NCBI RefSeq assembly: GCF_000186345.1
Contig: NC_014962.1
Coordinates: 558,001 to 622,000 of the forward strand
Source of the DNA: Isosphaera pallida ATCC 43644
Lineage (GTDB): Bacteria; Planctomycetota; Planctomycetia; Isosphaerales; Isosphaeraceae
DNA: 64,000 nucleotides
Reading direction: 5' to 3'
Below, piece after piece: positions 33,732 to 49,680 of this stretch. Under the pieces are notes generated by a model. That model was not told where the DNA came from. It made no database searches and saw nothing but the letters and a program-made list of their open reading frames with translations. A program made the translations under genes and the position numbers. Position 1 is the stretch's first letter; the number at the start of each line of letters is the position of its first letter.

Positions 33732-36026
33732 ATGGACCTGACCTTGTTGCATTCCGGGTTGGCGGCGGGGGCGGCGCTGGCGGCCTTACCGATCCTGCTG
33801 CACCTGTTTCAACGCCGCACTCCCAAGAAGGTTGTCTTTCCGGCCTTACACCTGATTCGAGCCCAATCGATCAAGACCAACCGACGGTTGCGGATCAAGA
33901 ACTGGCTACTCTTGCTGGCTCGCATGGCTTTGATCGCGTTGATGGCCCTGGCGTTGGCCCGTCCTACTTTGCACAGTCAGGCCGTGTTGGGGGACGAGGA
34001 GGTTTCCACCGGATTGGGCTTGGTCATCGACACCAGCTTGTCGATGACCTATCAAGAGGGGGGCCAGACCTTGCTCGATGAGGCCCGCGAGGCGGCCCGG
34101 GTGCTGCTGGGCAAGACCCCCTCCAGCTCGCAGGTTTATCTGATCGACTCGGCCGAGCCGGTCAAGATCGCGCCACTTTCCCCCTCGGCGGCCCGCGCTC
34201 GTTTGGACGAGATCAAGCCGCGACCTGCCAACCGTCCGCTCAACGACGCGATCGCCGCGGCGATTCGCTCGGTGGCCGAGAGCGACCAGCCCCGCCGCGA
34301 GGTCTTCGTCCTGACCGACCTGGCCCGCACCTCCTGGGATGTGGGTCGCGCGCTGAGCGAGGCCGAGAAAACCCTGGTGGCTGATCGCGGCATCTCGATT
34401 TACGTCATTCGTCTTAAGGCGGAGGCACCCCGCAACGTGGCGATCATCGCGTTGGAGCCGACGGCCGACTTGATCACCGAAGCGGCTCCCTTGGCGATCC
34501 GCGCGACCCTGGTCAATCAGGGACCAGCCACCACCCGCCGGGTCGATTTCAGCGTGGACGGCCAGCCGCGCGGAGTTCAAACCGTGGAACTCGGGGCCGA
34601 CACCGAGACCCAAGTCCTCTTCGACGTTCCCAAGCTGGCGCGGGGGCTTCATCAAATTGAAGTTCGCCTCGCCGAGGGAGCCGACCCGCTGGACTTCGAC
34701 AATGTCCGACTCCTGGCCATTCGGGTGCGTGATCCCATCAAAGTTTTAGTAGTCTCCGATCTGGTGATCGACGGCGAGTTCATTGCCAACGCTCTGGACC
34801 CCTCGCTGGAGCCGTTGGAGAACGCCCAGGAGATGGGGCCGGTGGCTCGTCCCTTCCGAGTCGAACGCCGGTTGGCCCGCCAGGGCGATTGGACCGCGCC
34901 GGAGACGCTTGACAACGCGGCGGTGGTCTTTGTCAACAACGTCGAGCGGATCGACGACCAACAGTGGAGTCGGCTCAACGCCTTCGTTCGCCGCGGCGGC
35001 GGACTGGTGCTGGGAGTCGGACATCGGACCGACCCAGACTTCTACAACACCGCCTTGGCCCGCCAGGTGATGCCCGCGGCGCTCGATCAGGTGGTCAGGT
35101 TGCGGGAATCGACCACCTTCGGCCGGGCGGAACGGTCCCATCCGTTGATCGACACCCCTTACCTTGACGAACTGGTGACCGACTTGGCGGGGATTCCGGT
35201 GTCGGTGTTTTACGCGGTCACGCCCGCTCCTTCCGCCGCGGTCGTCGTGACCTTGGCGACCAACGCCCCCGCGCTTTTGGAGCGGAATTTTCCGGGCGGT
35301 CGCGCAGGCAAGGTGTTGCTGTGGACCACGCCGCTGTCGCGGCGTCCCAACCCCAACGATCCCGCCGCCTGGAACGAGTTTCCCAACCCATCGTTCTGGT
35401 CGTTCGTCGATTTGACCTATCGCACGGTTCCCTATCTGGCCGGTTTGGCCTCCGAACGGCTCACCTACGAGGCCGGCGAGGAGGTTTTGCTGACCATCGA
35501 CCCGGTGGGAACCTCTGGCGGATCGTCCGTTGGCAACCCTGAGGAAGGCGCCACGCGGCAGTGGGTGGTGACCGGACCAGGCGACACGCCGCCTGAACGG
35601 ATCGGAACGCCGCGGGGAGGCAACCTGTTACCCATCCTGGGAATCGAGACCCCGGGCTTTTGGAGCGTCAAGCCGGTCAACCCCAACCTTGGACCCGCGT
35701 TGGGGTTCGCGGTCAACCCGCCGGCCCGCGAGGCGCTGCTCAAGCCGATTGAATCCACCGAGATCGAGCTGTTGCTGGTCAAAGACCGTCTGGCGATCGC
35801 CGAAGGATTGGCCGACCTCAAACGAGCCACCGCCGCGCAACGAATCGGCCGCGAACTGTTTCCCGTTCTCATGGCGTTGATCCTCATTCTAATCACACTG
35901 GAAAACCTCTTGGCCAACACCTTCTATCGCCCGGCCCATTCCCACGATGTCCAAGTCGCCGCAGGGATTGGCCGCGAACGCCAAGACCGCTACGAGCCGT
36001 CGGCCGATTTCAACTCCACGAGATGA
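33732..36026 (+). CDS. BatA-like membrane protein with VWA domain
   Basis: 764 residues from ATG 33732 (the frame is open to 33618 but the BatA domain begins here). The aerotolerance-type N-terminal domain (LHSGLAAGAALAALPILLHLFQRRTPKKVVFPALHLI) carries one helix, and a second helix (LLLLARMALIALMALALARP) precedes the VWA domain with MIDAS DTSLSM near residue 100. A large extracytoplasmic part and a final membrane helix (LFPVLMALILILITLENLL) follow. It forms a unit with MoxR and DUF58. The exact function in planctomycetes is unknown; in other bacteria Bat genes relate to stress tolerance. Confidence 0.87.
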   Translation: MDLTLLHSGLAAGAALAALPILLHLFQRRTPKKVVFPALHLIRAQSIKTNRRLRIKNWLLLLARMALIALMALALARPTLHSQAVLGDEEVSTGLGLVIDTSLSMTYQEGGQTLLDEAREAARVLLGKTPSSSQVYLIDSAEPVKIAPLSPSAARARLDEIKPRPANRPLNDAIAAAIRSVAESDQPRREVFVLTDLARTSWDVGRALSEAEKTLVADRGISIYVIRLKAEAPRNVAIIALEPTADLITEAAPLAIRATLVNQGPATTRRVDFSVDGQPRGVQTVELGADTETQVLFDVPKLARGLHQIEVRLAEGADPLDFDNVRLLAIRVRDPIKVLVVSDLVIDGEFIANALDPSLEPLENAQEMGPVARPFRVERRLARQGDWTAPETLDNAAVVFVNNVERIDDQQWSRLNAFVRRGGGLVLGVGHRTDPDFYNTALARQVMPAALDQVVRLRESTTFGRAERSHPLIDTPYLDELVTDLAGIPVSVFYAVTPAPSAAVVVTLATNAPALLERNFPGGRAGKVLLWTTPLSRRPNPNDPAAWNEFPNPSFWSFVDLTYRTVPYLAGLASERLTYEAGEEVLLTIDPVGTSGGSSVGNPEEGATRQWVVTGPGDTPPERIGTPRGGNLLPILGIETPGFWSVKPVNPNLGPALGFAVNPPAREALLKPIESTEIELLLVKDRLAIAEGLADLKRATAAQRIGRELFPVLMALILILITLENLLANTFYRPAHSHDVQVAAGIGRERQDRYEPSADFNSTR

Positions 36027-36033
36027 TTCGACC

Positions 36034-38385
36034 ATGATGCGACTGAGCGTCAATCCGATCGGACCTTGGGCCCTGATTATTCTCGGGGCAGTCTCGGTGC
36101 TGGCGGCGACCTGGTGGGCCTATCGGGTTCCGGTTCGCAGCGGGGTCAGCCGCCTGCGTTGGGTGGTGGTCGGACTGCGGATCGTGGCGGTCCTGCTTTG
36201 TCTGGCAGCGCTATTGAGACCCTCGGTGCTGATCGCTGAGCGCAAGACCGAATCAGCTTTGGTGCTGATGCTGGTCGATTCCTCGACCTCGATGACCCTC
36301 ACCGACGAAGTGGGGGGACGTTCCCGCTGGGAAGTCGCTTTGGAGACGGTCCAACAGGCCCGCGCTGCGATCGAACGGATCGGGGGCGCCTCCGTGTCGG
36401 CGGAGCGGATCATGGAGGAGGAGGCCGCGGGTCTTCAAGCACAATATTATCGCTTCGACGGACAGTTGACTGAGTGGGAACCCTCCTCCAACTCCCCAAA
36501 GGACCAAGAGGGTGACCAGGCCGCGTCGCGGCCCGGCGTCGGTGTCGAGACGTCCGACTCAGCTCAAGACAGCAGTTCACCCAAGCCTCCAGAGGGTCGG
36601 GAGACGGCGTTGGGATCAATGCTGGCCGAAGCGCTGCGGCGTCACGAAGGCAAGCGGATTGCCGCGATGGTGGTGGTGAGCGACGGAGCCAGCAATTCGG
36701 GTCGTCCCCCTCTGACCGTGGCCGAACAGTTCAAAGCGCGGGGGATTCCAATCACCTCGGTGGGGTTGGGTTCGGATCGGACCGGTCCCGAAGGTCGGGA
36801 TATTGCGGTGCGGGAGATCGTCACGGCCCCCACGGTGTTCGTCAAAAATGAGTTGCAGGTGCGGGGAACCGTCCGGGCGCGGGGATTCGCTAACGTCCCC
36901 CTGGAGGTCGAACTGCTGGCCGACGGCGTCAAAGTCGCCTCGACTCGGATCACCGCCCGCGGCGACGACGAGATTCTCAGCGTCCGCGACCTGAAGCATG
37001 TGTTCGAGACGCCCGGCGAAAAGCGGCTCACCTTGCGGGTCGAGCCGCTCGACGGCGAGACATTGCGGGCCAACAATGAGGTCGGTACCTATCTCGATGT
37101 TCTCAAAGGCGGTCTGGCGGTGCTTTACCTTCAAGGACCCAATTTCTCCTGGGAATATAAATATTTGGTGACGTCGCTCGACACCTCGCCCGACATCCAG
37201 GTGGACCTTGCGGTGCTGCGCCGTCCGGCCACCGCGACCACCAGTGAACTGCCGCCCGACGCACTTCAGCCGGGTAAGTATGACGTGTTCGTCCTTGGGG
37301 ATTTCCCTGCACGGTTGTTGACCACGATGCAGCAACGCCAATTGGCCGACCGGGTGGATCAAGGGGCAGGATTGATCATGCTAGGAGGGCGGGACAGCTT
37401 GGGACCGGGCGGTTGGCGGGACACCGCCCTGGCCCGGATTTTGCCGGTGGAGGTTCACCCCGGCGACGGCGACACCGACCCGCCCGGCGGCATCAAAGTG
37501 GTTCCCAACCCGGACGCTTTGGATGCATATGTGATGAAACTGGCCTCCAACTTGGAGGAGTCACGCGCGATTTGGGAGGCTCTGCCGCCGATTCCGGGGG
37601 CGAGCAACTTGAATCGTCCCAAGATTGGGTCCTCGATCTGGGCCACCTCGCCCGATCGTCGTCCTTTGCTGGTGGCTCAGGAGATTGGTCTGGGTCGCTC
37701 AATGGTCTTCGCCGGTGAAACCTGGGTCTGGGCGCGAGCTTCGGAGGCGAGCTTCGCCGCCCACCGTCGGTTGTGGCGCCAGATCATCCTTTGGCTGGCC
37801 CGCAAGGAGGAGACCGGCGAAAACGAGGTCAAGCTCACGCTGGATCGCCGCGGCCTGCGGTTAGGCCAGAAGCTCGACCTGACCATCCAAGCGCTCGACG
37901 GCGAAAAAACCCCGATTCCTGACGCCTCCTTCCAGGCTGAGGCAGTTCGGCTCGACGCCAACGGATTGGCGGTTCCTGAAACCAACATGCCTATTGATCT
38001 TTATAAATCTGGGGCCGAGGCTCGTGGCAGCCTCTTCGCTACCGGCGAGCCTGGGGAGTATCGCATCACTGCCACCGCCCGCGACGCCCAGGGCGAGATT
38101 CTTGGAACCGACTCGGCCCGCTTTCTGCTCATCGAGGACGACCGCGAGTTGGAGAACCCCGCTGCCAACCTCGCTTTGCTTAAGCAACTGGCCTCGATCA
38201 CCGGCGGCGAATTCCTTCCGCCTGACAAGCTGGGCGACTATCTCGAAGCACTTCATCGCGACAGCCCGGCCCGTTTCGAGGTCCTCACCGAGCATCGTAT
38301 CTACGACAACTGGCCTTACTTTCTGGCTTTCGTCACCGTCTTGACCCTAGAATGGGCGCTACGGCGTCGGATTGGTTGGGTGTGA
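36034..38385 (+). CDS. Membrane VWA / glutamine-amidotransferase-like protein
   Basis: 783 residues, starting 8 bases after the BatA-like stop. Two N-terminal helices are followed by a VWA domain with MIDAS DSSTSM near residue 80. A middle CARDB-like beta region follows, then a class I amidotransferase-like segment (YDVFVLGDFPARLLTTMQQRQLADRVDQGAGLIMLGG) that lacks an evident catalytic Cys, and a C-terminal helix (YFLAFVTVLTLEWALRRRIGW). This composition is typical of the last gene in planctomycete moxR-bat clusters. Likely periplasmic with membrane anchors at both ends. Confidence 0.85.
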   Translation: MMRLSVNPIGPWALIILGAVSVLAATWWAYRVPVRSGVSRLRWVVVGLRIVAVLLCLAALLRPSVLIAERKTESALVLMLVDSSTSMTLTDEVGGRSRWEVALETVQQARAAIERIGGASVSAERIMEEEAAGLQAQYYRFDGQLTEWEPSSNSPKDQEGDQAASRPGVGVETSDSAQDSSSPKPPEGRETALGSMLAEALRRHEGKRIAAMVVVSDGASNSGRPPLTVAEQFKARGIPITSVGLGSDRTGPEGRDIAVREIVTAPTVFVKNELQVRGTVRARGFANVPLEVELLADGVKVASTRITARGDDEILSVRDLKHVFETPGEKRLTLRVEPLDGETLRANNEVGTYLDVLKGGLAVLYLQGPNFSWEYKYLVTSLDTSPDIQVDLAVLRRPATATTSELPPDALQPGKYDVFVLGDFPARLLTTMQQRQLADRVDQGAGLIMLGGRDSLGPGGWRDTALARILPVEVHPGDGDTDPPGGIKVVPNPDALDAYVMKLASNLEESRAIWEALPPIPGASNLNRPKIGSSIWATSPDRRPLLVAQEIGLGRSMVFAGETWVWARASEASFAAHRRLWRQIILWLARKEETGENEVKLTLDRRGLRLGQKLDLTIQALDGEKTPIPDASFQAEAVRLDANGLAVPETNMPIDLYKSGAEARGSLFATGEPGEYRITATARDAQGEILGTDSARFLLIEDDRELENPAANLALLKQLASITGGEFLPPDKLGDYLEALHRDSPARFEVLTEHRIYDNWPYFLAFVTVLTLEWALRRRIGWV

Positions 38386-38458: not shown

Positions 38459-39850
38459 TCAGACGCGACTCGGTTCATCGAACTCAGTCAAAAGCAACGT
38501 GGGCTCGGACAAGTGACGGACCACCGCGTTGCCGAACTCGGCCGCGGCGGCTCCATCCACCACCCGATGATCGAAGGTGATCGAGAGATACACTAGATCG
38601 GCCGGGCGAATCCGGTCCTGGTCGTCGTACACCGGACGCCTCACGATGCGGCCAACCCCGAGGATGCCCACCTGAGGGATGTTGAGGATCGGCGCAGTGA
38701 ACAGGCCGCCGATGTTGCCGATCGAAGTGACGGTGAAGGTACCGCCAGTCAGGTCCTCGCGGGTGATGCTCCCGTCGCGGACCGCACGGCTGAGCCGTTC
38801 CAAGTCGCGGCACAGCGCCGGCAGAGGCCGACGATCGGCGTGACGCAGCACCGGCACCACCAGACCGCTTGGCGCGGACACCGCGACCCCCACATGCCGC
38901 TCGTTGTGCAAGGTGATCCGCCCGGCGGTTTCGTCAAGCGTGGCGTTCATGATTGGCACGTCGATCAGCGCCCGCGCGACAGCCTTGATGATGAAGGGGG
39001 TGTAGGTGAGCCTCACACCTCGTTGAATCATCGCCTCTTTGATTTGGGAACGAAGCGCCACCAGAGCAGTCAAGTCGCACTCCTCGACATAGGAGGCGTG
39101 GGGGATGGTTCGTTTGGCTTCCACCATCCGATCGCCGATTTTACGACGCAGACCGATGTAAGGGATGACTTGCCCCGGTTCTCCGAACTCGTTTCGCTTG
39201 GCTGGACCGCCGCGGGCTTTGGAGGAAACCGCCGCGGCGTCGCGTTTGGCGACAGGGGGTTCTCCCGACGGGAACGACCCCGCAACCGCGCCGGCACGCT
39301 CGCGCAATACCCGAGCCAGATCTTCCAAGCGAACTCGGTCGATTCCTTCGGCCGTCTTCGAGGCGGGGATGGCGTCGAGGTCCAAGCCAAGTTCTCGAGC
39401 CAGGCGGCGGACCACTGGCGCGGCTTGCTTGCGGGGCGAGGAAGGCGAAGCGGTGGGGCGGGGGGGGGGAGCGGTCGAAGCCCGATTGGTTCCATTGGAG
39501 GGTGGCGGTTCGGCAGCGTGGGCGACTTCGACGACGGGGGGGGCATCGGTTCGGGAGAGCGTCTCGGTTCGCGCGGAGGGAGCGACCGGAGCCGCTTGAG
39601 CCACGGGAGTGGGGGTGTCTACAGCTTGATAGGACAAGACTCCCTCGCCCACGGCCACGCGATGACCAGGAGAGGCTTTGAGGGCGGTGATCCGTCCCTC
39701 GAAGGGGGCGGGCACCTCCATCGTCGCCTTGTCGGTCATGACCTCCATCAAGGGTTGGCCGCGACGGACCACGTCTCCCACGTTAACCCGCCAGGCGACC
39801 AGTTCGGCCTCCTGGACCGCTTCGCCAAGTTCGGGCAACTTGAAGATCAT
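38459..39850 (-). CDS. 2-oxoacid dehydrogenase E2 (dihydrolipoamide acyltransferase)
   Basis: 463 residues. The N-terminal lipoyl domain carries the lipoylated Lys41 in TDKATMEVP. A Pro/Ala-rich linker leads to a peripheral-subunit-binding domain (about 145-180) and the catalytic domain, which ends with ITFDHRVVDGAAAAEFG, containing the active-site His and Asp. It transfers the acyl group from E1 to CoA. It lies 138 bases downstream of E1beta, in the same direction, forming an E1alpha-E1beta-E2 operon. No E3 gene is in the window. The closest resemblance is to branched-chain 2-oxoacid complexes. Confidence 0.92.
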   Translation of the reverse strand: MIFKLPELGEAVQEAELVAWRVNVGDVVRRGQPLMEVMTDKATMEVPAPFEGRITALKASPGHRVAVGEGVLSYQAVDTPTPVAQAAPVAPSARTETLSRTDAPPVVEVAHAAEPPPSNGTNRASTAPPPRPTASPSSPRKQAAPVVRRLARELGLDLDAIPASKTAEGIDRVRLEDLARVLRERAGAVAGSFPSGEPPVAKRDAAAVSSKARGGPAKRNEFGEPGQVIPYIGLRRKIGDRMVEAKRTIPHASYVEECDLTALVALRSQIKEAMIQRGVRLTYTPFIIKAVARALIDVPIMNATLDETAGRITLHNERHVGVAVSAPSGLVVPVLRHADRRPLPALCRDLERLSRAVRDGSITREDLTGGTFTVTSIGNIGGLFTAPILNIPQVGILGVGRIVRRPVYDDQDRIRPADLVYLSITFDHRVVDGAAAAEFGNAVVRHLSEPTLLLTEFDEPSRV

Positions 39851-39988
39851 CGCGCGGACTCCCTACGAGCAACGTGTTCCATTTCATCCCGTCAACAATC
39901 CCAAACATCATCAATCAAGCCGACAACATGGACGGAAACCAAACCGGCGGCAGGGTGGGGTGTCCTGGCGCGACGCGAGTCCAGGCGA

Positions 39989-41050
39989 TTAGGCGGTCTC
40001 AGCGATCAGGTCGCGCAGGGCCTCGTGGACGTGGTGCAGTTGGGGAACCGAGTGGTTTTCGTAAACCTCGTTCAAACCGATGCCGGGGACATGTTTTCCC
40101 ATCAGCACGCGTGGGCGGGCGATCAGGTCGTAAAAGGCGTCTTCGATCACCCGGCGCAGCAGATGTTCCCCGAAGTTGGTGACTTCGGTATCCTCGTTGA
40201 CCACCAAAAACCGCCCGGTTTTTGCGACCGAGGCTCGGATGGTGGCCCAATCGTAGGGGAAAATGGTGCGCAGGTCGATCACTTCGACCGAGGCACCTTG
40301 CTCCTGAGCGAGGCGGTCGGCAGCCTTGAGGCATAGATGCAGGGTGCGTCCGTAGCTGACCACGGTGACGTCGGTTCCCTCGCGGGCGACGCGGGCTTGG
40401 CCCAAAGGAATGAACCGGGGGACGATGTCCGGCCAGCGGGGGGTCCACGAGGCCCGCGCAGCACCCACCGGGGCGTCGATCATTTCCGAGAGGGTGCGCT
40501 CGTCTTCAGGTTCGCCGGGTAGTTTTTCCTCGCTCTTGACCCGCAGCAACGCTTTGGGCAGCAGATAAAGAACGGGGTTGGGGTCGGCGATCGCCGAAAG
40601 CATCAGGCCGTGGGCGTCGATCGCGTTGCTGGGCATGACGATCTTCCAGCCCGGCAGGCGGCTGGCCCAGGATTCAAACGAGTGCGAGTGATATAAACTG
40701 CCGTGGATGCCCGCGCCATTGGGGGTCATCACCACGATCGGCATCTCGTATTGGCCCGCCCCCGACCAGCGCTGGTTGCCTGCAACCTTGAGCAAATCAA
40801 TGCAGTTGAAGGCGTAGTCGCAAAACTGAATCTCGGCGACGGGACGACCACCGGCGTAGGCGATGCCCATCGCTGCGCCAATGATCCCACGTTCGTCCAG
40901 CGGCGAGTTCCAGGCGGTGCGTAATCCCTGGGTGGCGGTGAAGACGCCGCCCAAAGGCGGCCCGACATCCTCGCCGAAGATGTCGGTGACGCCCAGATGT
41001 TCCTCGCCGTAATGAAGCGCCATCCGCACGGCCTGCACCAAAGTGGCCAT
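39989..41050 (-). CDS. 2-oxoacid dehydrogenase E1 component, beta subunit
   Basis: 353 residues from ATG 41050 with AAGGA about 10 bases upstream; the longer open frame overlaps the E1alpha gene and is not coding. The transketolase-like pyrimidine-binding domain begins MATLVQAVRMALHYGEEH and contains GEDVGPPLGGVF, RPVAEIQFCDYAFN and HGSLYHSHSFESW, as in branched-chain-type E1beta. It pairs with E1alpha to decarboxylate a 2-oxoacid using thiamine diphosphate. Confidence 0.92.
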   Translation of the reverse strand: MATLVQAVRMALHYGEEHLGVTDIFGEDVGPPLGGVFTATQGLRTAWNSPLDERGIIGAAMGIAYAGGRPVAEIQFCDYAFNCIDLLKVAGNQRWSGAGQYEMPIVVMTPNGAGIHGSLYHSHSFESWASRLPGWKIVMPSNAIDAHGLMLSAIADPNPVLYLLPKALLRVKSEEKLPGEPEDERTLSEMIDAPVGAARASWTPRWPDIVPRFIPLGQARVAREGTDVTVVSYGRTLHLCLKAADRLAQEQGASVEVIDLRTIFPYDWATIRASVAKTGRFLVVNEDTEVTNFGEHLLRRVIEDAFYDLIARPRVLMGKHVPGIGLNEVYENHSVPQLHHVHEALRDLIAETA

Positions 41051-41228
41051 CTGCGTCGATCCTTTCAATCCACGCGCCCGCGCCACAAGATAGATAAGAC
41101 AAGACAAAGGGTGCGGGGGGTGATGTGACCCGCGTGTTAGGAACCTTCCTAGGATGCCGGGCAACCAGTTCGGCACCCAGGAAGGGGTGAGATGAGAGGG
41201 GCTGGAAGGGGATAGGAAAGTGGGGCGA

Positions 41229-42332
41229 TCACCGGGGCAGTCCGGTGTAATCCTCAGGATAAACGGCGTCGTATCGACTGGGGGCGTAGGTGAACCGTTC
41301 GACATCCTCGGGGCGGGGGCGGGCCTCGTCCAGCACCTCTTCGACGGCCCGCTCGATCTGATCGCGGCATTCCCGATGAACCTGGTCGAGGTCGGCTTCA
41401 TTGGCCAGGCCGCGTTCGATCATTTTGGATTCGAGGAGGGCGATGCAGTCGGCCTCAGTGTCGATCCGGCCGGCTCCGCTGCTGGAGGAGTGGCCGTGAA
41501 GCCGGGAGACCCGAGCCTGAAGCAGGTAGGGCCCGCGTTCGCGGCGGCAGTAGTCGATGCCCCGTTGCAGGGCGTGCCAGCTGGCCACCACGTCGTTGCC
41601 GTCCACCAGTTCGCAGGGAATTTCGTGCGCTTTGGCCATCTTGAGCGGGCGGGCCTCGTCCATCTGCGAGGTGGTCAGGGTGGAGATCCCGTAGGCGTTG
41701 TCGGTCACGATGAACAGCACCGGCAGTTCCTGGCGGGGGCGGGTCGCCCAGAGAAGCCCACTGGCAAAGTCGCCTTCGGCCGAGCCGGCGTCGCCGCCGG
41801 TTACGATCGAGATGCCGTCGCCGCCCAACCGCTTTTGGATCATGGCTGTGCCCGGCGCGATCACGTATTGGTTTTCAATGACCGAGAAGACGGGGACCAC
41901 GTTCCAGTCGGCTCGGGCGAAGTGACCAACGAAGTTGCGGCCCATCGAGAAGGGGTCGGTCCGAGTCATGATCATCTGGCGAATGGCGTCGCGCGGATCC
42001 ATCCCCATCGCTAAAAGGGTGGCACTGTTGCGATAATGGAGATGAAGGTAGTCAAACGCCGGTCCCCGACCCTTCTTGACCTGTAGACCCAGGCAGACGT
42101 TGAACGCCTCCTCGCCGGGACCACCAACCCAGAAGTAAGCCTGACCGGACTTGCTCAGCTTGATCATCCGCTCTTCGAGGGTTCGTCCCAGAACCATCAA
42201 GCGGTGCAACGTGAAAATACGATCAGCGGGAAGCGATTCGTTGCCGGTGTAGACCCGGCCGTCACGGGGCGGGGTCGGGGCCGGGGACGGAAGCATCCGC
42301 GTCGGATTCGATAAGAAACGCGCGGGTTCCAT
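41229..42332 (-). CDS. 2-oxoacid dehydrogenase E1 component, alpha subunit
   Basis: 367 residues. The thiamine-diphosphate motif appears as GGDAGSAEGDFASGLLWATRPRQELPVLFIVTDNAYGIS, and the phosphorylation-loop region as RLHGHSSSSGA. GGPGEEAFN and HLHYRNSATLLAMG are typical of branched-chain or related E1alpha. Start at 42332, preceded by AAAGGA. It is the first gene of the E1alpha-E1beta-E2 set; a 178-base gap separates it from E1beta. The substrate (branched-chain, pyruvate or acetoin) cannot be decided from the sequence. The AcoR-like regulator 1.8 kb away makes acetoin conceivable. Confidence 0.92.
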   Translation of the reverse strand: MEPARFLSNPTRMLPSPAPTPPRDGRVYTGNESLPADRIFTLHRLMVLGRTLEERMIKLSKSGQAYFWVGGPGEEAFNVCLGLQVKKGRGPAFDYLHLHYRNSATLLAMGMDPRDAIRQMIMTRTDPFSMGRNFVGHFARADWNVVPVFSVIENQYVIAPGTAMIQKRLGGDGISIVTGGDAGSAEGDFASGLLWATRPRQELPVLFIVTDNAYGISTLTTSQMDEARPLKMAKAHEIPCELVDGNDVVASWHALQRGIDYCRRERGPYLLQARVSRLHGHSSSSGAGRIDTEADCIALLESKMIERGLANEADLDQVHRECRDQIERAVEEVLDEARPRPEDVERFTYAPSRYDAVYPEDYTGLPR

Positions 42333-42536
42333 CGGCCATTCCTTTCCGGGGCGGGGGCCCTAGGTTCTACAGGATGGGAGGTGGTGACGCGCCGATCGGC
42401 GGAACGAACCGGAGGACTGGTCACCGGGAGACCAAGCGTCGAGGCGGAGTCCTCCAGGAAACCTTCAACCACGACAGCATGTCTCGTCATCCGGTGACAA
42501 GGCCAGGCGGAACGGGCCGGGACGCCGATTGCCAGG

Positions 42537-42602
42537 CGCGATGTGTAGGCATTCTATGCCTGGCTTCCGGGTTTTGGAAGTCGAACACATCGCGGGTTTT
42601 TT
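42537..42602 (+). ncRNA. Three-helix structured element ending in a T-run
   Basis: A closing stem CGCGATGTGT (42537-42546) pairs perfectly with ACACATCGCG (42585-42594). Inside are two hairpins: AGGCAT-TCT-ATGCCT (42547-42561) and CTTCC-GGGTTTT-GGAAG (42564-42580). Six T bases (42597-42602) follow the closing stem two bases later. Together they form a compact three-way junction that also resembles an intrinsic terminator on the plus strand. I do not recognise an RNA family, and there is no obvious gene ending just upstream. Confidence 0.5.
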
Positions 42603-42734
42603 GGAAAAGCAAAGCGATTGTGGCGGCTGGCGGCTTGGGAGCGATTGCTATGGTGACGCTGCCAGGGATGAAATGTTTCTCCCGCGACAGAGACGGTTCG
42701 AGGGCGAGCTCAGCGCCTGCGAGACGCCCGAGAA

Positions 42735-43367
42735 TTGAGAATCCACCACGACCGCGCGTTCCCCAAGGGAAGCGATTGGCCGCAACAGCACGGGCCCACT
42801 CTCCATGACTCGGCCATCGACTGTCAACGCGAGTTGGTTGACAACCTCGACGCGGCCCGCCTGCTTTGGGGCATCGATATGCCGATCCCCAGCGGTCGAG
42901 GCGGACTGGACGCACGCTCTGGATGTTTCAGAATGCGACGAACACGGGCCTGATCGGCGCGGGCAAGTCGGGCCGCGGCCTCACGGCCCTCCACCACAAC
43001 GACCTGGTGATCTTCCGTGGCGAGGCGTCCCCCTGGACGGCGTTGATGCTCGAATGGAACGCTCCGCGACTCCTTCGGCGATTCGCAAACAGCCAGCACC
43101 GATCGCCGCCCCGTGGTCATCGACGGCGGGCTTCTGGTACGCCTCAACGACACCCCCAAACGTCCCCAAAACGCTCTGCCCCACGCGCTGGTCGAGCATT
43201 CCTCGCTGCTGGCCCTCGAGCCAAACACCGGCAAGCCGCTTTGGCGAGCCCGCAACGTCATCGCCAGCAGCGCGATTCCCATTCCCATCGAACACAACGG
43301 CACCACTTCGCTCGTCACGGCTTACAACGGCGTGGTCGATCCCAGGAATCTCCCGCTGCCTGACTAG
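42735..43367 (+). pseudogene. Remnant of a PQQ-like beta-propeller protein
   Basis: Peptides typical of PQQ-binding-like beta-propellers occur in three frames in order. First comes SDWPQQHGPTLHDSA...AARLLWG from about 42765; then GLIGAGKSGRGLTALHHNDLVIFRGEAS from about 42950; then VVIDGGLLVRLND...LLALEPNTGKPLWRAR and LVTAYNGVV to the stop at 43365-43367. No single frame joins them, so the gene has suffered at least two frameshifts and is probably dead. The region has no conserved start. Confidence 0.6.
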
Positions 43368-44111
43368 GCCAAACCCGAACATCGCGGAATGCGGTCGCTT
43401 GTCGAGCCGCAACGAGTCCCGCGAATCGGGCTTCCAGGTGATCGACGCCAAAAATTGTCCATGATTAACATCATTTTGTTATGTTAATAATCGATATTAA
43501 GGTAGCCACAATTGGACTTAGGCGATCATGTCCAACGGCCGGATCATCACAAAACAACTGACCAGTGTACTTTGATGTTTCAACTCAAGGATAGTCGGAT
43601 AGAATAGCTGTCCGGCAAGCTACCCGTGAATCTGGCCGGTGGAGATGTTTGTCCCGTTCGACCCGCCATCGCGGACAGGCGGTTGTTTGTCCGCACCGGT
43701 GATGAGTTGGCGTGCGGCAACCTGTGTAAACCCGTGGTCGAGCGTGGGCGGCGACTCTCGGACTTTCCTGACATCTAGACTTCGAGCCATGAACCAAGCG
43801 AGGGGTTGAATCCGATAGCAGGTTGAAGTTGCGATCCTTCCCCGCGTCTCCCTGCCACGATGGAGTGAGGACGTCCGGAAGGAGCGAAACCGACGTTTTT
43901 CTTGATTCATCGGGGTTGTGAGGCCGTCCAGCCGTCGGATAGGATGATCGAACTGCGAGCGGTTCCGATCCAAGGATTGCTGAGTGACACGGCGGGTCGA
44001 AACCGCGCTATATCCTGTTGGAACCAACCCGATTGGCGAGCGGACGGCAGGGGGCTTAGCTTAGCGGTTGGCAAAGGGCTCGTAAGAGTGGGATGGGATG
44101 GGGAGGGGACC
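43368..44111. other. Non-coding stretch upstream of the AcoR-like gene
   Basis: 744 bases without a supported gene. The first part continues the eroded propeller remnant. Positions 43455-43515 are strikingly AT-rich for this genome and carry inverted repeats. The remainder looks like the leader of the AcoR-like gene; the AcoR frame is open back to 43902, but the ribosome binding site supports 44112. Confidence 0.45.
43465..43500. repeat. Overlapping inverted repeats in an AT-rich patch
   Basis: TTAACAT (43465-43471) is repeated inverted as ATGTTAA (43481-43487), and TTAATA (43484-43489) is repeated inverted as TATTAA (43495-43500). The two dyads share bases. They may be regulator sites, or a scar of inserted DNA next to the broken propeller gene. 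Confidence 0.5.
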
Positions 44112-46403
44112 ATGCCCAGTCGCAACGGCGGATCGGAACGAATCTGGTCGCGTTACGTCGAGACCGGGGACGACCGCGAAGCCCGCCGGGTTTTGCCCCG
44201 CGTCATTTGGGAGTCGTGGCGACGTTGCCGGGAAGATTGGCGGCTGGATGTCGGGCTGGCGGAAGTGACCAGTCGGTTGCCCGAGGAGCAGTGGCGGGCG
44301 TTGCGCGAGCGTCACCGCCAATGCTGGTGGGGCGGCGTGGAGCCACTTTGGAACGAGGCAGCTCGACGGGTTGGCGAAAACGGTGGCGTGGTGGCGATCT
44401 TCGACGCCGAAGGCTGGATGCTCGACCTGGAGGGCGACTCCCGAGCGCGGACGCGTCTGGAGACGATCCGCTTCGCGCCGGGCTATAACTGGAGCGAAGC
44501 CTCTGCCGGAACCAACGGACCGGGTCTGGCGCTTTGGCGACGCGAGCCGGTGAGGGTTCGAGGCGCGGAACACTACATCGCGGCCTGGCATCCTTGGAAC
44601 TGCGCCTCGGCGGTGGTGCGCGACCCGGAAACCGAGCGGATCGTCGCCGCCGTCGATGTCACGGCACCGGCCGGTTCGGAAGCATCGCGTTCGCATGCCT
44701 TGGCCGTGGCCGCCACCTTGGCGAGGGCCGCTGAGGCGGAGTTGGCCCATCGTTTCGAGGCCCGCCGCGCAGCGCTGCTGGACCTTTTCCGTGGTCTGGC
44801 CGCCGGTCGGTCCTCCGAGGGACTTTTGGCGGTGGACGCGGGGTTGCGTGTGCTGCGGTGTAACGACGCGGCCGCGGTTCATCTTGGCCCCCCCGACCGT
44901 CCCAGCCTGGAGCATTGCCCCGGACTCAAGGCGGCGGTCCTCAACATCCTTGAGCGTTATCGTGGCCCCAAGACCCACCCCGGCATCATCGGGAGCGAGG
45001 GTGACGACCACCCCTCCGGCGAGGATCAGATCGAGTTCGAGCGATTCGAGTTGACCGAGTGCCGCCACGTCGGCTCCCGCGCCACGCGCGTCCTGGTGGC
45101 CCCCGCCTGGCGCGACGGCCAACTCCTCGGCGCGCTCTTGCTGCTCGCTGGCTCCCTTACCCGCGCCGTGGTTCAAGGACGATCCACGTCGTCCGCGACG
45201 ATTCAAGATAAAACGCACCCGAATATGACGATAACCGCCCGTCGTTGTGATCAGGATCCTCTGGCCATGCTCGACGGACAGACCGAAGCCCTTGTTCGGC
45301 TCAAGGACCGCGCCCGACGCGCTGCGGCCTCCGAACTGCCGATCCTGCTGATGGGCGAGACCGGGACCGGCAAAGAGGTCCTGGCGCGGGCGATCCACGC
45401 CGCGAGTCGCCGGGGTCGGACTGGACGGCCCTTCGTCGCGGTCAACTGCGGCGCGTTGCCCGAGAGTCTCATCGAGTCGGAACTCTTCGGCCACGCCCCA
45501 GGAGCCTTCACTGGTGCCACGGCACGGGGGCGTCCCGGTCGCTTCGTCGAAGCTGACGGCGGTACCCTGCTGCTCGACGAAGTTCACGATCTGTCGCCCT
45601 CGGCGCAGTCGGCGTTGCTGCGGGTGCTTCAGGAAGGGGAGGTCACCCCGCTGGGCGGCTCGACCCGGCGGGTCGATGTGCGGGTGATCGCGGCCTGCAA
45701 CCGCGACCTGCGGGCCGAGGTCGCGGCCGGCCGGTTTCGGGCCGACCTGTTTTATCGTCTCCATGTGCTCACCCTCGAACTGCCGCCGTTGCGTTGCCGG
45801 CGCGACGACATTCCCCATCTGGCCCATCTCTTTTTGGAGGAGGCGCTGGCGGCCCGGGAAGCCGGGGCGTCGGGTTCCAATCCCATCCGGGGTTGGACCC
45901 CCCGCGCTTTGGAGGCGCTCCAGGCTTACGACTGGCCTGGCAACCTGCGGGAACTCAAGGCGGTCGTTCACGCGGCGGTCACCTTCGCCGAGGGAACCCT
46001 GCTCGATCTGGACGATCTGCCAGACTTCCTCCGCCCGGAATCCCTCCGAGTCGTTCCTCCGCCTGGCTGCCCCCCGGCGTTTCCCGCTGATTCGTCGGTC
46101 GCTTCGCCTCTCCTTGGCCGGACGTCTCGAACAACGGCTTTGGGTCGCGGCGACCACACCGCGGAGGATGTCCTCCTCCCCGCCAATCCCGCCAACGCGG
46201 AACCCTGGCTCCGTGCGCTTCAAGACGCCCAAGGCAATCTCGCCGAGGCGGCCCGGAGGTTGGGTGTCTCGCGGATGACCCTCTACCGGCGTATCAACCG
46301 ACGGGGACTCATCCGCATTCGAAGACTTCAAACCAACGGCCCCGACCCCGCGCGGGACATCCACCCTCAAGGCCAGGGCCATTGGGACGAATACCGCCCC
46401 TGA
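44112..46403 (+). CDS. AcoR-like sigma-54-dependent transcriptional activator
   Basis: 763 residues from ATG 44112, which follows GGGAGGGG at 44101-44108. The N-terminal half has the AcoR-family sensory region: a GAF-like domain at about 70-230 (FAPGYNWSEASAGTNGPGLAL is typical) and a PAS-like segment near 235-290. The AAA+ domain has Walker A GETGTGKE near 415, the sigma-54 contact loop GAFTGA near 464, and Walker B GGTLLLDEVHD. A Fis-type helix-turn-helix closes the protein (NLAEAARRLGVSRMTLYRRINR). AcoR-family activators switch on alcohol or acetoin oxidation genes. The alcohol and aldehyde dehydrogenase genes directly downstream, behind a sigma-54 promoter, are its likely targets. Confidence 0.93.
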   Translation: MPSRNGGSERIWSRYVETGDDREARRVLPRVIWESWRRCREDWRLDVGLAEVTSRLPEEQWRALRERHRQCWWGGVEPLWNEAARRVGENGGVVAIFDAEGWMLDLEGDSRARTRLETIRFAPGYNWSEASAGTNGPGLALWRREPVRVRGAEHYIAAWHPWNCASAVVRDPETERIVAAVDVTAPAGSEASRSHALAVAATLARAAEAELAHRFEARRAALLDLFRGLAAGRSSEGLLAVDAGLRVLRCNDAAAVHLGPPDRPSLEHCPGLKAAVLNILERYRGPKTHPGIIGSEGDDHPSGEDQIEFERFELTECRHVGSRATRVLVAPAWRDGQLLGALLLLAGSLTRAVVQGRSTSSATIQDKTHPNMTITARRCDQDPLAMLDGQTEALVRLKDRARRAAASELPILLMGETGTGKEVLARAIHAASRRGRTGRPFVAVNCGALPESLIESELFGHAPGAFTGATARGRPGRFVEADGGTLLLDEVHDLSPSAQSALLRVLQEGEVTPLGGSTRRVDVRVIAACNRDLRAEVAAGRFRADLFYRLHVLTLELPPLRCRRDDIPHLAHLFLEEALAAREAGASGSNPIRGWTPRALEALQAYDWPGNLRELKAVVHAAVTFAEGTLLDLDDLPDFLRPESLRVVPPPGCPPAFPADSSVASPLLGRTSRTTALGRGDHTAEDVLLPANPANAEPWLRALQDAQGNLAEAARRLGVSRMTLYRRINRRGLIRIRRLQTNGPDPARDIHPQGQGHWDEYRP

Positions 46404-46482
46404 GGCGCGACACCCGCCCATCTTTTTCCGCGTCGATCGCCTCCCCAGGTGTGACAGGCGCCTCATCCTAGAGTTGATCGCG

Positions 46483-46532
46483 GTGACGAATGTCACGTCG
46501 AAGTCGGGTCGAATGTCACTCAACCGATGACA
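46483..46532. promoter_or_regulatory. Candidate enhancer sites of the sigma-54 activator
   Basis: GTGAC-GAAT-GTCAC at 46483-46496 is a perfect 5-base inverted repeat, and TGTCA (46514-46518) with TGACA (46528-46532) forms a second. A further TGTGACA lies at 46450-46456. They are 64-146 bases upstream of the -24 element, the normal range for sigma-54 activator binding. That the AcoR-like protein binds here is inference. Confidence 0.5.
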
Positions 46533-46595
46533 ACAAGGCGGCGTCGAAGCGGCAACGGTGGTGGTTCGACCCGAAAATCGGCTAGGTTGGCGTAT

Positions 46596-46612
46596 TTGGC
46601 ATGAAGGGTGCA
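46596..46612 (+). promoter_or_regulatory. Sigma-54 (-24/-12) promoter
   Basis: TTGGCATGAAGGGTGCA fits the consensus YTGGCACGRNNNTTGCW with two mismatches. The essential GG and GC dinucleotides are present and correctly spaced. It lies downstream of a gene for a GAFTGA-containing activator and upstream of the dehydrogenase genes it presumably controls. Confidence 0.65.
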
Positions 46613-47000
46613 TTAAGCCTAAACATCCGCGGCAGGCGCGGGGTCGTGCTCGCGTCCGGGCGTGGTGGAGGGACTCGGTGAATCGAGCAGGTTGGCTCGA
46701 CTCGCAGCCTCCGAACTGCCCAACAAGTCTTGCCGCGTTAATTCGTCTCATCCCGTCTTGCGTTCCCCGGCTTTGGTTCGCCGTGACAAAACGACCCACC
46801 TCATCGTCGCGTCGCAAGACGTGTCGTTGTGTGGTGGTTGGTTCGTCGCGCTGCGCGGTGTGGCGTTGGCGGAGGGGACGCGCGGAGCAAGCCTGACCGC
46901 TCTGATCGTCCCGGAGGACGGGGAGAGTGCTGGTGGGGTGTGGCGGGCATGGGTTCGTGTTCGTGGGAATGTTCCATCGAGGAATCGAGGAGTCGCCCTG

Positions 47001-48020
47001 ATGATGATGATGAAAGCCGCGGTGGTTCGCGACTACGGTGAACCGTTGACGATCGAGGATCTGCCGATTCCCTGTCCTACGGAGGGACAGGTGCTGGTCA
47101 AGATGGAAGCCTCGGGGCTGTGCCACACCGACATTCACGCGGCCCACGGCGATTGGCCGATCAAGCCGCCGCTGCCTCTGATTCCGGGCCACGAGGGGAT
47201 TGGGATCGTCACCCAGGTGGGGCCGGGTGTCCGCGAGGTCAAGGAGGGGGACCGGGTGGCGATTCCCTGGCTGGGTTACGCCTGCGGGGTCTGCGAATAC
47301 TGCGCCTCGGGGTGGGAGACGCTTTGCGAGAAGCAGCTCAACAGCGGCTACGCCTTGCCAGGGGCCTACGCCGAATACGCCACCGCCTTTGCTCGCTACG
47401 TCGGCCACGTGCCCAAAGGGGTGAGTCCTTTGGATGCTGCCCCATTGAGTTGCGCGGGGGTGACCACTTATAAAGCCGTGAAGGTCTCTGGAGCGCGTCC
47501 CAGCGATTTGGTGGCGATCTTCGGGGTGGGTGGCTTGGGCCACCTGGCGATTCAGTACGCCAAGATCGCTGGGTCGACGGTGGTGGCGGTCGATCTTCTG
47601 CACGAAAAGCTCGACCTGGCGACCAGTCTGGGGGCCGATTACACGATCAACGCCCGTCACGAGGACCCCGCCGAGGCGATCAAGAAGCTGGGCGGGGCCG
47701 ACGCGGCGATCTGCCTGGCGGTCGCGCCCAGAGCGTTCGAACAAGCCTACCGCTCGCTGCGTCGGGGGGGACGACTGGTGTTCGTCGCGCTGCCGGCGGA
47801 TAATCATGTCCAGATCCCTATTTTCGAGACGGTGCTCAATGGGATTTCGATCATCGGTTCGATTGTCGGCACCCGGGTTGATCTCAAGGAGGTGTTCGAG
47901 CTTCACGCCGCCGGCAGGACCAAGGTGATTTACGAAACCCGCAAGCTCGACGAGGTCAATCACTGTTTCGAGGAAGTCGAAGCCGGCAAGGTTCCCGCCC
48001 GTTTGGTCTTCGAGTTCTGA
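47001..48020 (+). CDS. Zinc-dependent alcohol dehydrogenase (AdhP-like)
   Basis: 339 residues, with GAGGAG at 46988-46993 seven bases before a run of four ATG codons; the first is used. Catalytic zinc ligands lie in GLCHTDIH and PGHEGIGIV, and structural zinc cysteines in ACGVCEYCASGWETLC. The NAD-binding Rossmann motif is GVGGLGHLAIQYAK. It oxidises primary alcohols to aldehydes and resembles the ethanol/propanol-preferring AdhP type. The aldehyde dehydrogenase gene 157 bases downstream would complete oxidation to the acid. Confidence 0.93.
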   Translation: MMMMKAAVVRDYGEPLTIEDLPIPCPTEGQVLVKMEASGLCHTDIHAAHGDWPIKPPLPLIPGHEGIGIVTQVGPGVREVKEGDRVAIPWLGYACGVCEYCASGWETLCEKQLNSGYALPGAYAEYATAFARYVGHVPKGVSPLDAAPLSCAGVTTYKAVKVSGARPSDLVAIFGVGGLGHLAIQYAKIAGSTVVAVDLLHEKLDLATSLGADYTINARHEDPAEAIKKLGGADAAICLAVAPRAFEQAYRSLRRGGRLVFVALPADNHVQIPIFETVLNGISIIGSIVGTRVDLKEVFELHAAGRTKVIYETRKLDEVNHCFEEVEAGKVPARLVFEF

Positions 48021-48177
48021 GTTAGGGAATCCCGGCCTTGCCGAAAGGACGCAGGCGTGGCGTCCGACGCCGCGCCCGGCGACTTCTGGCACGCATTCCA
48101 CCCGTTGCAAGCCTTTCCATCCCTCGTCCGTCGCGTCGCAAGGCCACGGATCGAAGTCACCAAGGAGATTGAATGCC

Positions 48178-49680
48178 ATGTCCGTTTCCACTTTGGACCC
48201 AACCCGCCACGCGCCGGTGGTCCCTAAGTTCAAGCCTCAAGGAATGTTGATCGACGGCCGTTGGACCCAGGCGGTTGATGACGAGAATTTCGAGACGATC
48301 GACCCGGCGACCGAAACGGTGCTGGCGCATGTGCCTTCGGGGGGGCGAGTGGATATCGACCTGGCGGTGAAGGCGGCCCGCCAGGCGTTCGAGTCGGGTC
48401 CGTGGCCCAAGATGACTCCCTCGGAGCGGGGCCGTTTGCTTTGGAAACTGGCCGATCGTCTGGAGGAATGCCGCGACGAGTTCGCCGAACTCGAGTCGCT
48501 GGACAACGGCAAGCCGCTGGCCGTCGCGCGGGTCGCTGACGTGCCGCTGGCGGTCGATCTGTTCCGCTACATGGCCGGTTGGGCCACCAAGATCGAGGGC
48601 AAAACCATCCCGATTTCAGCTCCCACCGCGCCTGGGGCGGAGTTCCTGGCGATGACCCTGCGCGAGCCGATCGGTGTGGTCGGTCAGATCATTCCCTGGA
48701 ACTTCCCGTTGCTGATGGCCGCCTGGAAGCTCGGTCCGGCCCTGGCCACGGGTTGCACGGTGATCCTCAAGCCGGCGGAACAAACTCCGCTTTCGGCTCT
48801 AAGGCTGGGCGAACTGATCCAAGAGGTCGGCTTCCCTGCCGGGGTCGTCAACATCGTCACCGGCTTCGGCGCGACGGCCGGGGCGGCCCTGGCGGCGCAC
48901 CCCGACGTGGACAAGGTGGCGTTCACCGGCTCGACCGAGGTGGGCCGGGCGATTGTTCAGGCGGCGGCGGGCAACCTCAAGCGGGTTACCTTGGAACTCG
49001 GCGGCAAGAGCCCCAACGTCGTTTTCGCCGACGCCGATCTCGAGACCGCGATCCCCGGCGCGGCCAACGCGATCTTCTTCAACCACGGGCAATGCTGTTG
49101 CGCAGGCAGCCGTCTGTATGTGCAACGCTCGATCTTTGATCGGGTGGTCGAGGGAGTCGCCAACCACGCCCGTTCGATCAAACTGGGACATGGTCTGGAC
49201 GAATCCACTCAAATGGGGCCGTTGATCTCGAACGAGCAGCTTCAGCGGGTCAATGGTTTTCTGGAGTCCGGAGTCCGCGAAGGGGCGCGGGCGGTGGTAG
49301 GCGGCGGTCGGGTGGGGCATCGGGGGTTCTTCGTGGAGCCGACGGTGCTGGTTGATGTCAAGCCGACGATGAAGGTGGTCTGCGAGGAGATTTTCGGCCC
49401 GGTGGTCACGGCGATGCCGTTCGACGACCCGGCCCAGGTCGAACCAGCGGCCAATGAAACGATCTACGGTCTGGCCGCCGGCATCTGGACCCGCGATATT
49501 GGCAAAGCGCACCGGCTGGCCAAGCGACTTCGCGCGGGGACGGTTTGGATCAACTGCTACAACATCTTCGACGCCGCCTTGCCCTTTGGCGGCTACAAGC
49601 AGTCCGGTTGGGGGCGCGAAATGGGCTACGAGGCGATTCAGCTTTACACCGAGACCAAGTCGGTCTGCATCGGTCTGTGA
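48178..49680 (+). CDS. NAD-dependent aldehyde dehydrogenase
   Basis: 500 residues from ATG 48178; AAGGAG at 48162-48167 supports it over the in-frame TTG at 48169. Family motifs: PWNFPLLMA, VAFTGSTEVGRAI, the catalytic-base glutamate in LELGGKSPN, and the nucleophilic cysteine in NHGQCCCAGSRL. It closely resembles class 1/2 ALDHs that convert acetaldehyde and similar aldehydes to carboxylic acids. It probably shares the sigma-54 promoter with the alcohol dehydrogenase. The following 49681-49885 holds nothing obvious. Confidence 0.94.
   Translation: MSVSTLDPTRHAPVVPKFKPQGMLIDGRWTQAVDDENFETIDPATETVLAHVPSGGRVDIDLAVKAARQAFESGPWPKMTPSERGRLLWKLADRLEECRDEFAELESLDNGKPLAVARVADVPLAVDLFRYMAGWATKIEGKTIPISAPTAPGAEFLAMTLREPIGVVGQIIPWNFPLLMAAWKLGPALATGCTVILKPAEQTPLSALRLGELIQEVGFPAGVVNIVTGFGATAGAALAAHPDVDKVAFTGSTEVGRAIVQAAAGNLKRVTLELGGKSPNVVFADADLETAIPGAANAIFFNHGQCCCAGSRLYVQRSIFDRVVEGVANHARSIKLGHGLDESTQMGPLISNEQLQRVNGFLESGVREGARAVVGGGRVGHRGFFVEPTVLVDVKPTMKVVCEEIFGPVVTAMPFDDPAQVEPAANETIYGLAAGIWTRDIGKAHRLAKRLRAGTVWINCYNIFDAALPFGGYKQSGWGREMGYEAIQLYTETKSVCIGL

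Follow-up and report, generated by a model that had tools for sequence, protein, structure and literature searches.

The locus and its genes

The window analysed here is a stretch of 64,000 nucleotides, positions 558001-622000 of the 5,472,964-bp chromosome of Isosphaera pallida. Strain IS1B of this hot-spring species is a thermophilic planctomycete whose chromosome has been published (PMC3072084). Except where the chromosome is named or the genome sample is described, positions are those of the window. At 42537-42602 an earlier note had drawn attention to a compact, gene-free element of nested inverted repeats that ends in a T-run. The element lies in a divergent gap, with a 2-oxoacid dehydrogenase cluster on the minus strand to one side and a sigma-54 activator gene on the plus strand to the other, in the following setting:

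35947-38385: VWA-domain gene, neighbour of the aco cluster
38459-39850, minus strand: E2, member of the 2-oxoacid dehydrogenase cluster
minus strand, same cluster: E1 beta
41229-42332, minus strand: E1 alpha, acoA-like, member of the same cluster
43902-46403, plus strand: sigma-54 activator, AcoR-like
46662-48020, downstream of the sigma-54 activator gene: alcohol dehydrogenase (Pfam)
48169-49680: aldehyde dehydrogenase (judged from its translation)

We interpret the genes at 38459-49680 as a cluster of the acetoin-dehydrogenase-like (aco) kind whose activator is AcoR-like; the substrate is presumed from the kinds of genes present. In the gap itself (42333-43901) a codon-usage caller reported a short ORF at 43113-43367 and otherwise no intact gene. 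The ORF bears a weak resemblance to PQQ propellers from other planctomycetes (Pfam PQQ_2, E = 0.11; best relative, E = 3.5e-5), and we take it to be a decayed gene. Traces of a PQQ-propeller-like gene remnant broken by frame changes are legible on the plus strand across 42740-43370, the ORF among them. Between this remnant and the activator gene, 43400-43600 is locally AT-rich (GC 0.445 vs about 0.62) and contains an imperfect inverted repeat (43458-43471/43481-43494). A further inverted repeat in the same divergent gap has one arm at 42414-42432 and the other at 42486-42504; its perfect core of 8 bp is GTCACCGG/CCGGTGAC.

Sequence and predicted fold of the element

On direct reading, the perfect 10-pair stem, the inner hairpins of 6 and 5 pairs and the TTTTTT two bases further on proved exact to the base as first described. 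The parts, all on the plus strand, are as follows:

42531-42564: competing hairpin, GCCAGGC (42531-42537) with GCCTGGC (42558-42564), which excludes the closing stem
42537-42546: 5' arm of the closing stem, CGCGATGTGT, recognised from the sequence as half of an inverted repeat; pair probabilities 0.81-1.0
42547-42561: inner hairpin 1, AGGCAT-TCT-ATGCCT, 6 bp, recognised from the sequence; pair probability about 0.5-0.6 as RNA
42562-42582: inner hairpin 2 in its extended form, GGCTTCC-GGGTTTT-GGAAGTC, 7 bp (one G-C and one G-U pair added to the core); pair probability about 0.6
42564-42580: core of inner hairpin 2, CTTCC-GGGTTTT-GGAAG, 5 Watson-Crick pairs, recognised from the sequence
42585-42594: 3' arm of the closing stem, ACACATCGCG, recognised from the sequence as the other half of the inverted repeat
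42597-42602: T6 run, two bases (GG) past the stem, the predicted end of a plus-strand transcript, from the sequence, the ranking of runs and the frequency of such runs

The two arms, CGCGATGTGT and ACACATCGCG, pair perfectly over 10 bp to close a stem-loop of 58 nt in which they stand 38 nt apart. The comparison of folding energy with shuffled sequences that the earlier note had proposed favoured the element: its RNA fold has a z of -3.49, and none of 200 shuffles folded as low. As DNA, the minus strand reaches a z of -4.46. The closing stem forms with a pair probability of about 1 in the RNA ensemble. Its interior is split between a three-way junction (-30.3 kcal/mol) and a rod (-31.3 kcal/mol), both inside that same stem, and the junction hairpins have an ensemble pair probability of about 0.6. 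The modest pairing of inner hairpin 1 arises because the rod competes with it. With energies this close, the RNA is predicted to have two states, of which the three-way junction is one.

A third arrangement precedes these in simulated partial transcripts, where the hairpin at 42531-42564 is favoured up to about position 42584 and gives way only after synthesis of the 3' arm. This order of events is what an attenuator might show, with the early hairpin as antiterminator, the later one as terminator and a downstream plus-strand gene under their control. Like known terminator/antiterminator attenuators, the element offers two mutually exclusive hairpins, the later of which is followed by a T-run. 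Unlike them, it retains nothing of its early helix in the full transcript, where the pair probability of GCCAGGC/GCCTGGC is zero, and it lacks an aptamer, a leader peptide and an intact target gene. On the plus strand, the decayed PQQ-like remnant comes next, and the intact gene starts 1.3 kb away. Simple counting moreover predicts a 7-mer match of this kind in roughly one in ten such stretches, so that the match is weak evidence of a switch, and we hold an attenuator to be highly improbable.

At the level of double-stranded DNA, the inverted repeat might instead be bound by a protein that regulates the divergent aco genes; the AcoR-like sigma-54 activator, whose gene starts at 43902, is one candidate. 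The repeat is well placed for such a role: it lies upstream of the acoA-like start, about 205 bp from it, and the activator gene adjoins the gap. Against it, the arms are 38 nt apart, nested hairpins and a T-run are features that a regulator site does not need, and no convincing -24/-12 sigma-54 promoter was found. In Clostridiales, many sigma-54 activators have sites of the form TGT-N10-12-ACA (PMC6615313). The sole match to this pattern in the gap lies at 42674, outside the element, a test that is partial since AcoR itself is listed among the proteins with a distinct motif (PMC6615313). We therefore regard a regulator site as quite unlikely.

The element against the genomic background

Our genome sample was one contiguous stretch, the initial 2 Mb of the chromosome. 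A loose search for three-helix arrangements returned 22 in the real sequence vs 11-17 in simulations. A tight search for junctions (outer stem of at least 10, inner helices of at least 6 and at least 5, no more than 8 unpaired junction bases) returned the element itself and nothing else, and it returned nothing from second-order Markov sequence (24 x 2 Mb, 48 Mb in all), a result that overstates the case because the criteria were fixed after the element had been seen. The earlier argument that three nested perfect helices are improbable holds up with this post hoc reservation.

Strong folds occupy particular places in this genome. We defined a strong intergenic fold by a z of -3.6 or lower for its GC content, which is about the strength of the element or stronger, and found 76 in the 2-Mb scan. 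A gene 3' end faces 58 of the 76 (76%) from at most 120 nt away, whereas the figure for background windows is 22% (Fisher p = 7e-24). Divergent-gene gaps hold four (5%), compared with 25% of background. Strong hairpins in I. pallida are mostly 3'-end structures, and a TTTT tail accompanies 5 of the 58 that lie at 3' ends. Some of the strong hairpins are very long, among them one with an uninterrupted 21-bp stem at 1363873-1363938 of the chromosome.

The T-run places the element in a smaller class. The 2-Mb sample has 388 intergenic hairpins directly next to a T5+ or A5+ run, and the element ranks second among them. The hairpin in first place stands next to an A-run; the element is equal in energy to a T-run hairpin at 862677 and is thus tied for strongest among the hairpins directly before a T5+ run. 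With A5+ runs as the control, hairpins of -25 kcal/mol or lower number 9 before T5+ and 4 before A5+ runs, and those of -20 kcal/mol or lower just past a same-strand gene number 6 and 1, respectively. At moderate energies, T-runs in the sample show no excess of hairpins. Because the excess is confined to the strongest hairpins, U-tailed termination is probably sparse in I. pallida, and among such sparse terminators the element would rank with the clearest cases.

These comparisons also bear on whether the element arose in GC-rich spacer DNA by a rare accident and was noticed because it was sought. It was selected after the fact, it lacks conservation, and the same GC-adjusted z is reached by 53 100-bp bins in the 385 kb of intergenic DNA in the sample; judged by fold energy only, it is a strong element and not an exceptional one. 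Against coincidence stand the 48 Mb of simulated sequence with no tight equivalent, the non-random placement of strong folds in the genome, and the T6, which adds a factor of 0.00044, the frequency with which such a run begins 0-3 nt from an intergenic position. The fold of the element is not due to chance, and we consider a coincidental origin of the whole to be rather unlikely.

Conservation and lineage of the locus

Rfam 15 (4227 families), searched at gathering and relaxed thresholds, yielded no match above the gathering threshold; the best one below it, naRNA4, scored 19.9 bits vs the 59.5 needed. BLAST with 141 bp against 45 Isosphaeraceae returned short chance matches only. The covariance search of related genomes that the earlier note had proposed was carried out with a single-sequence model alongside a DNA search, the large scans being run with stricter filters, and neither found a homologue in the 45 Isosphaeraceae or in 392 Planctomycetota genomes. 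No second copy was found in the I. pallida genome, exact-pattern scans found none in genomes, and the searches tried of plasmids, phages and public contigs gave no homologue. A regulatory leader was among the possibilities first raised; a conserved one finds no backing in the Rfam and homologue searches. The weak covariance-model matches in relatives that we inspected had broken or compressed helices and no T-run, and we judged them to be chance. We judged likewise a single viral exact-pattern match because it has the short pattern in common and the rest of the element is absent.

The single copy bears as well on whether the element is a recombination or mobile-element hairpin, such as an attC site, an IS200/IS605-type end or a REP-like sequence. 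Its palindromes are imperfectly nested and also fold well as single-stranded DNA, as such hairpins would, but it occurs once in the genome and is absent from the relatives, plasmids and phages searched. Its closing arms, CGCGATGTGT/ACACATCGCG, are without the RYYYAAC/GTTRRRY pairs of attC, and the Pfam matches of the neighbouring genes include no integrase or transposase. The suggestion of a repeated or mobile recombination site is accordingly unsupported, and we regard it as extremely improbable.

The host locus itself has a restricted distribution. At E <= 1e-60, E1 alpha is absent from the 44 other Isosphaeraceae genomes, and the nearest proteins found, in other families of Planctomycetota, are only 49-54% identical and thus too distant for comparing non-coding upstream DNA. 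The VWA-domain gene is widespread in Isosphaeraceae, and in the 11 relatives examined its far-side flank matches the window and nothing in the aco cluster has a match there (1.5 kb of flank compared). Judged by these gene comparisons, the host aco locus is lineage-specific, and the lack of homologues is not evidence against a function of the element.

Discussion

From what is directly observed, namely the sequence, its predicted stability and position, the orientation of the T-run, the genome-wide placement of similar hairpins and the absence of homologues, we infer a branched, intrinsic-terminator-like hairpin that would act on plus-strand transcription and that has probably been orphaned; this is the reading towards which we lean, with some reserve. 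Once RNA polymerase had passed 42594, the 10-bp closing stem would snap shut in the exit channel, and the U6 tract (42597-42602) right after it would weaken the RNA-DNA hybrid, so that the complex would halt and release an RNA with its 3' end near 42602. The loop would be made shorter, and the arms drawn close to each other, by the inner hairpins or by the rod in their place.

In favour of such a terminator, a U-rich tract on the same strand comes straight after a stable hairpin. Against it, the upstream neighbour, the acoA-like E1 alpha gene, runs on the minus strand, so that the same-strand upstream gene that is usual, if not obligatory, is missing; the T-run counts only six bases, with GG at its end; and no homologue shows conservation. 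We read the element as an orphan because of this opposite-strand neighbour, and its origin could be one of two. It may terminate a short RNA, so far unannotated, that starts in about 42333-42536, or it may be the leftover of a gene lost as the aco cluster and its surroundings rearranged. The earlier idea that it is the end of a lost gene's transcript thus survives in part: a transcript end fits best, given the plus-strand T-run and the concentration of strong hairpins at gene 3' ends, whereas a coding remnant just upstream was sought in 42250-42536 and not found.

Comparison with known terminators clarifies what is unusual here. Like U-tailed intrinsic (Rho-independent) terminators, the element is a 58-nt stem-loop with a stable stem and a T6 within two bases on the same strand. 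Unlike them, it has a branched top and 38 nt between its arms in place of a small loop, a closing stem that is only moderately GC-rich, and no same-strand gene upstream. In strength it resembles the 3'-end hairpins of I. pallida, mostly without a T-run, and through them the 'I-shaped' terminators that lack a U-tail in GC-rich bacteria, from which it differs in having a T-run and in sitting in a divergent gap. TransTermHP accepts a stem of at least 4, a loop of 3-13 nt and a whole of at most 59 nt (PMC12207403), limits that are a search criterion and no mechanistic requirement. The overall length and the 10-bp stem of the element lie within them and the branched interval between its arms does not, and a simple terminator scan misses the element because its loop is branched and long.

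Alternatively, the acoA-acoR gap may give rise to a dedicated small regulatory RNA, at most about 250 nt long, whose 3' end, body and terminator together, is the element. A fold of its own and a T-run in a gene-free gap are what such an RNA would present, but we found no promoter-like site, no Rfam match and no homologue in the family or phylum genomes searched, and we think this unlikely. A broader version, in which a species-specific small RNA or attenuator in this gap uses 42531-42564 and 42537-42602 as alternative states to tune plus-strand transcription beside an acquired acetoin-dehydrogenase-type gene cluster, seems to us very unlikely. Nothing suggests a new kind of RNA, and an orphaned transcript end is a plausible account of the element.

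Taken alone, the element matters little, as one terminator-like hairpin in one genome, and the genome-wide pattern at gene 3' ends is the more useful result. We found no transcript-end map for Planctomycetota. I. pallida seems to mark the 3' ends of its genes by strong hairpins, mostly without a T-run, and for want of that run standard terminator finders would miss them.
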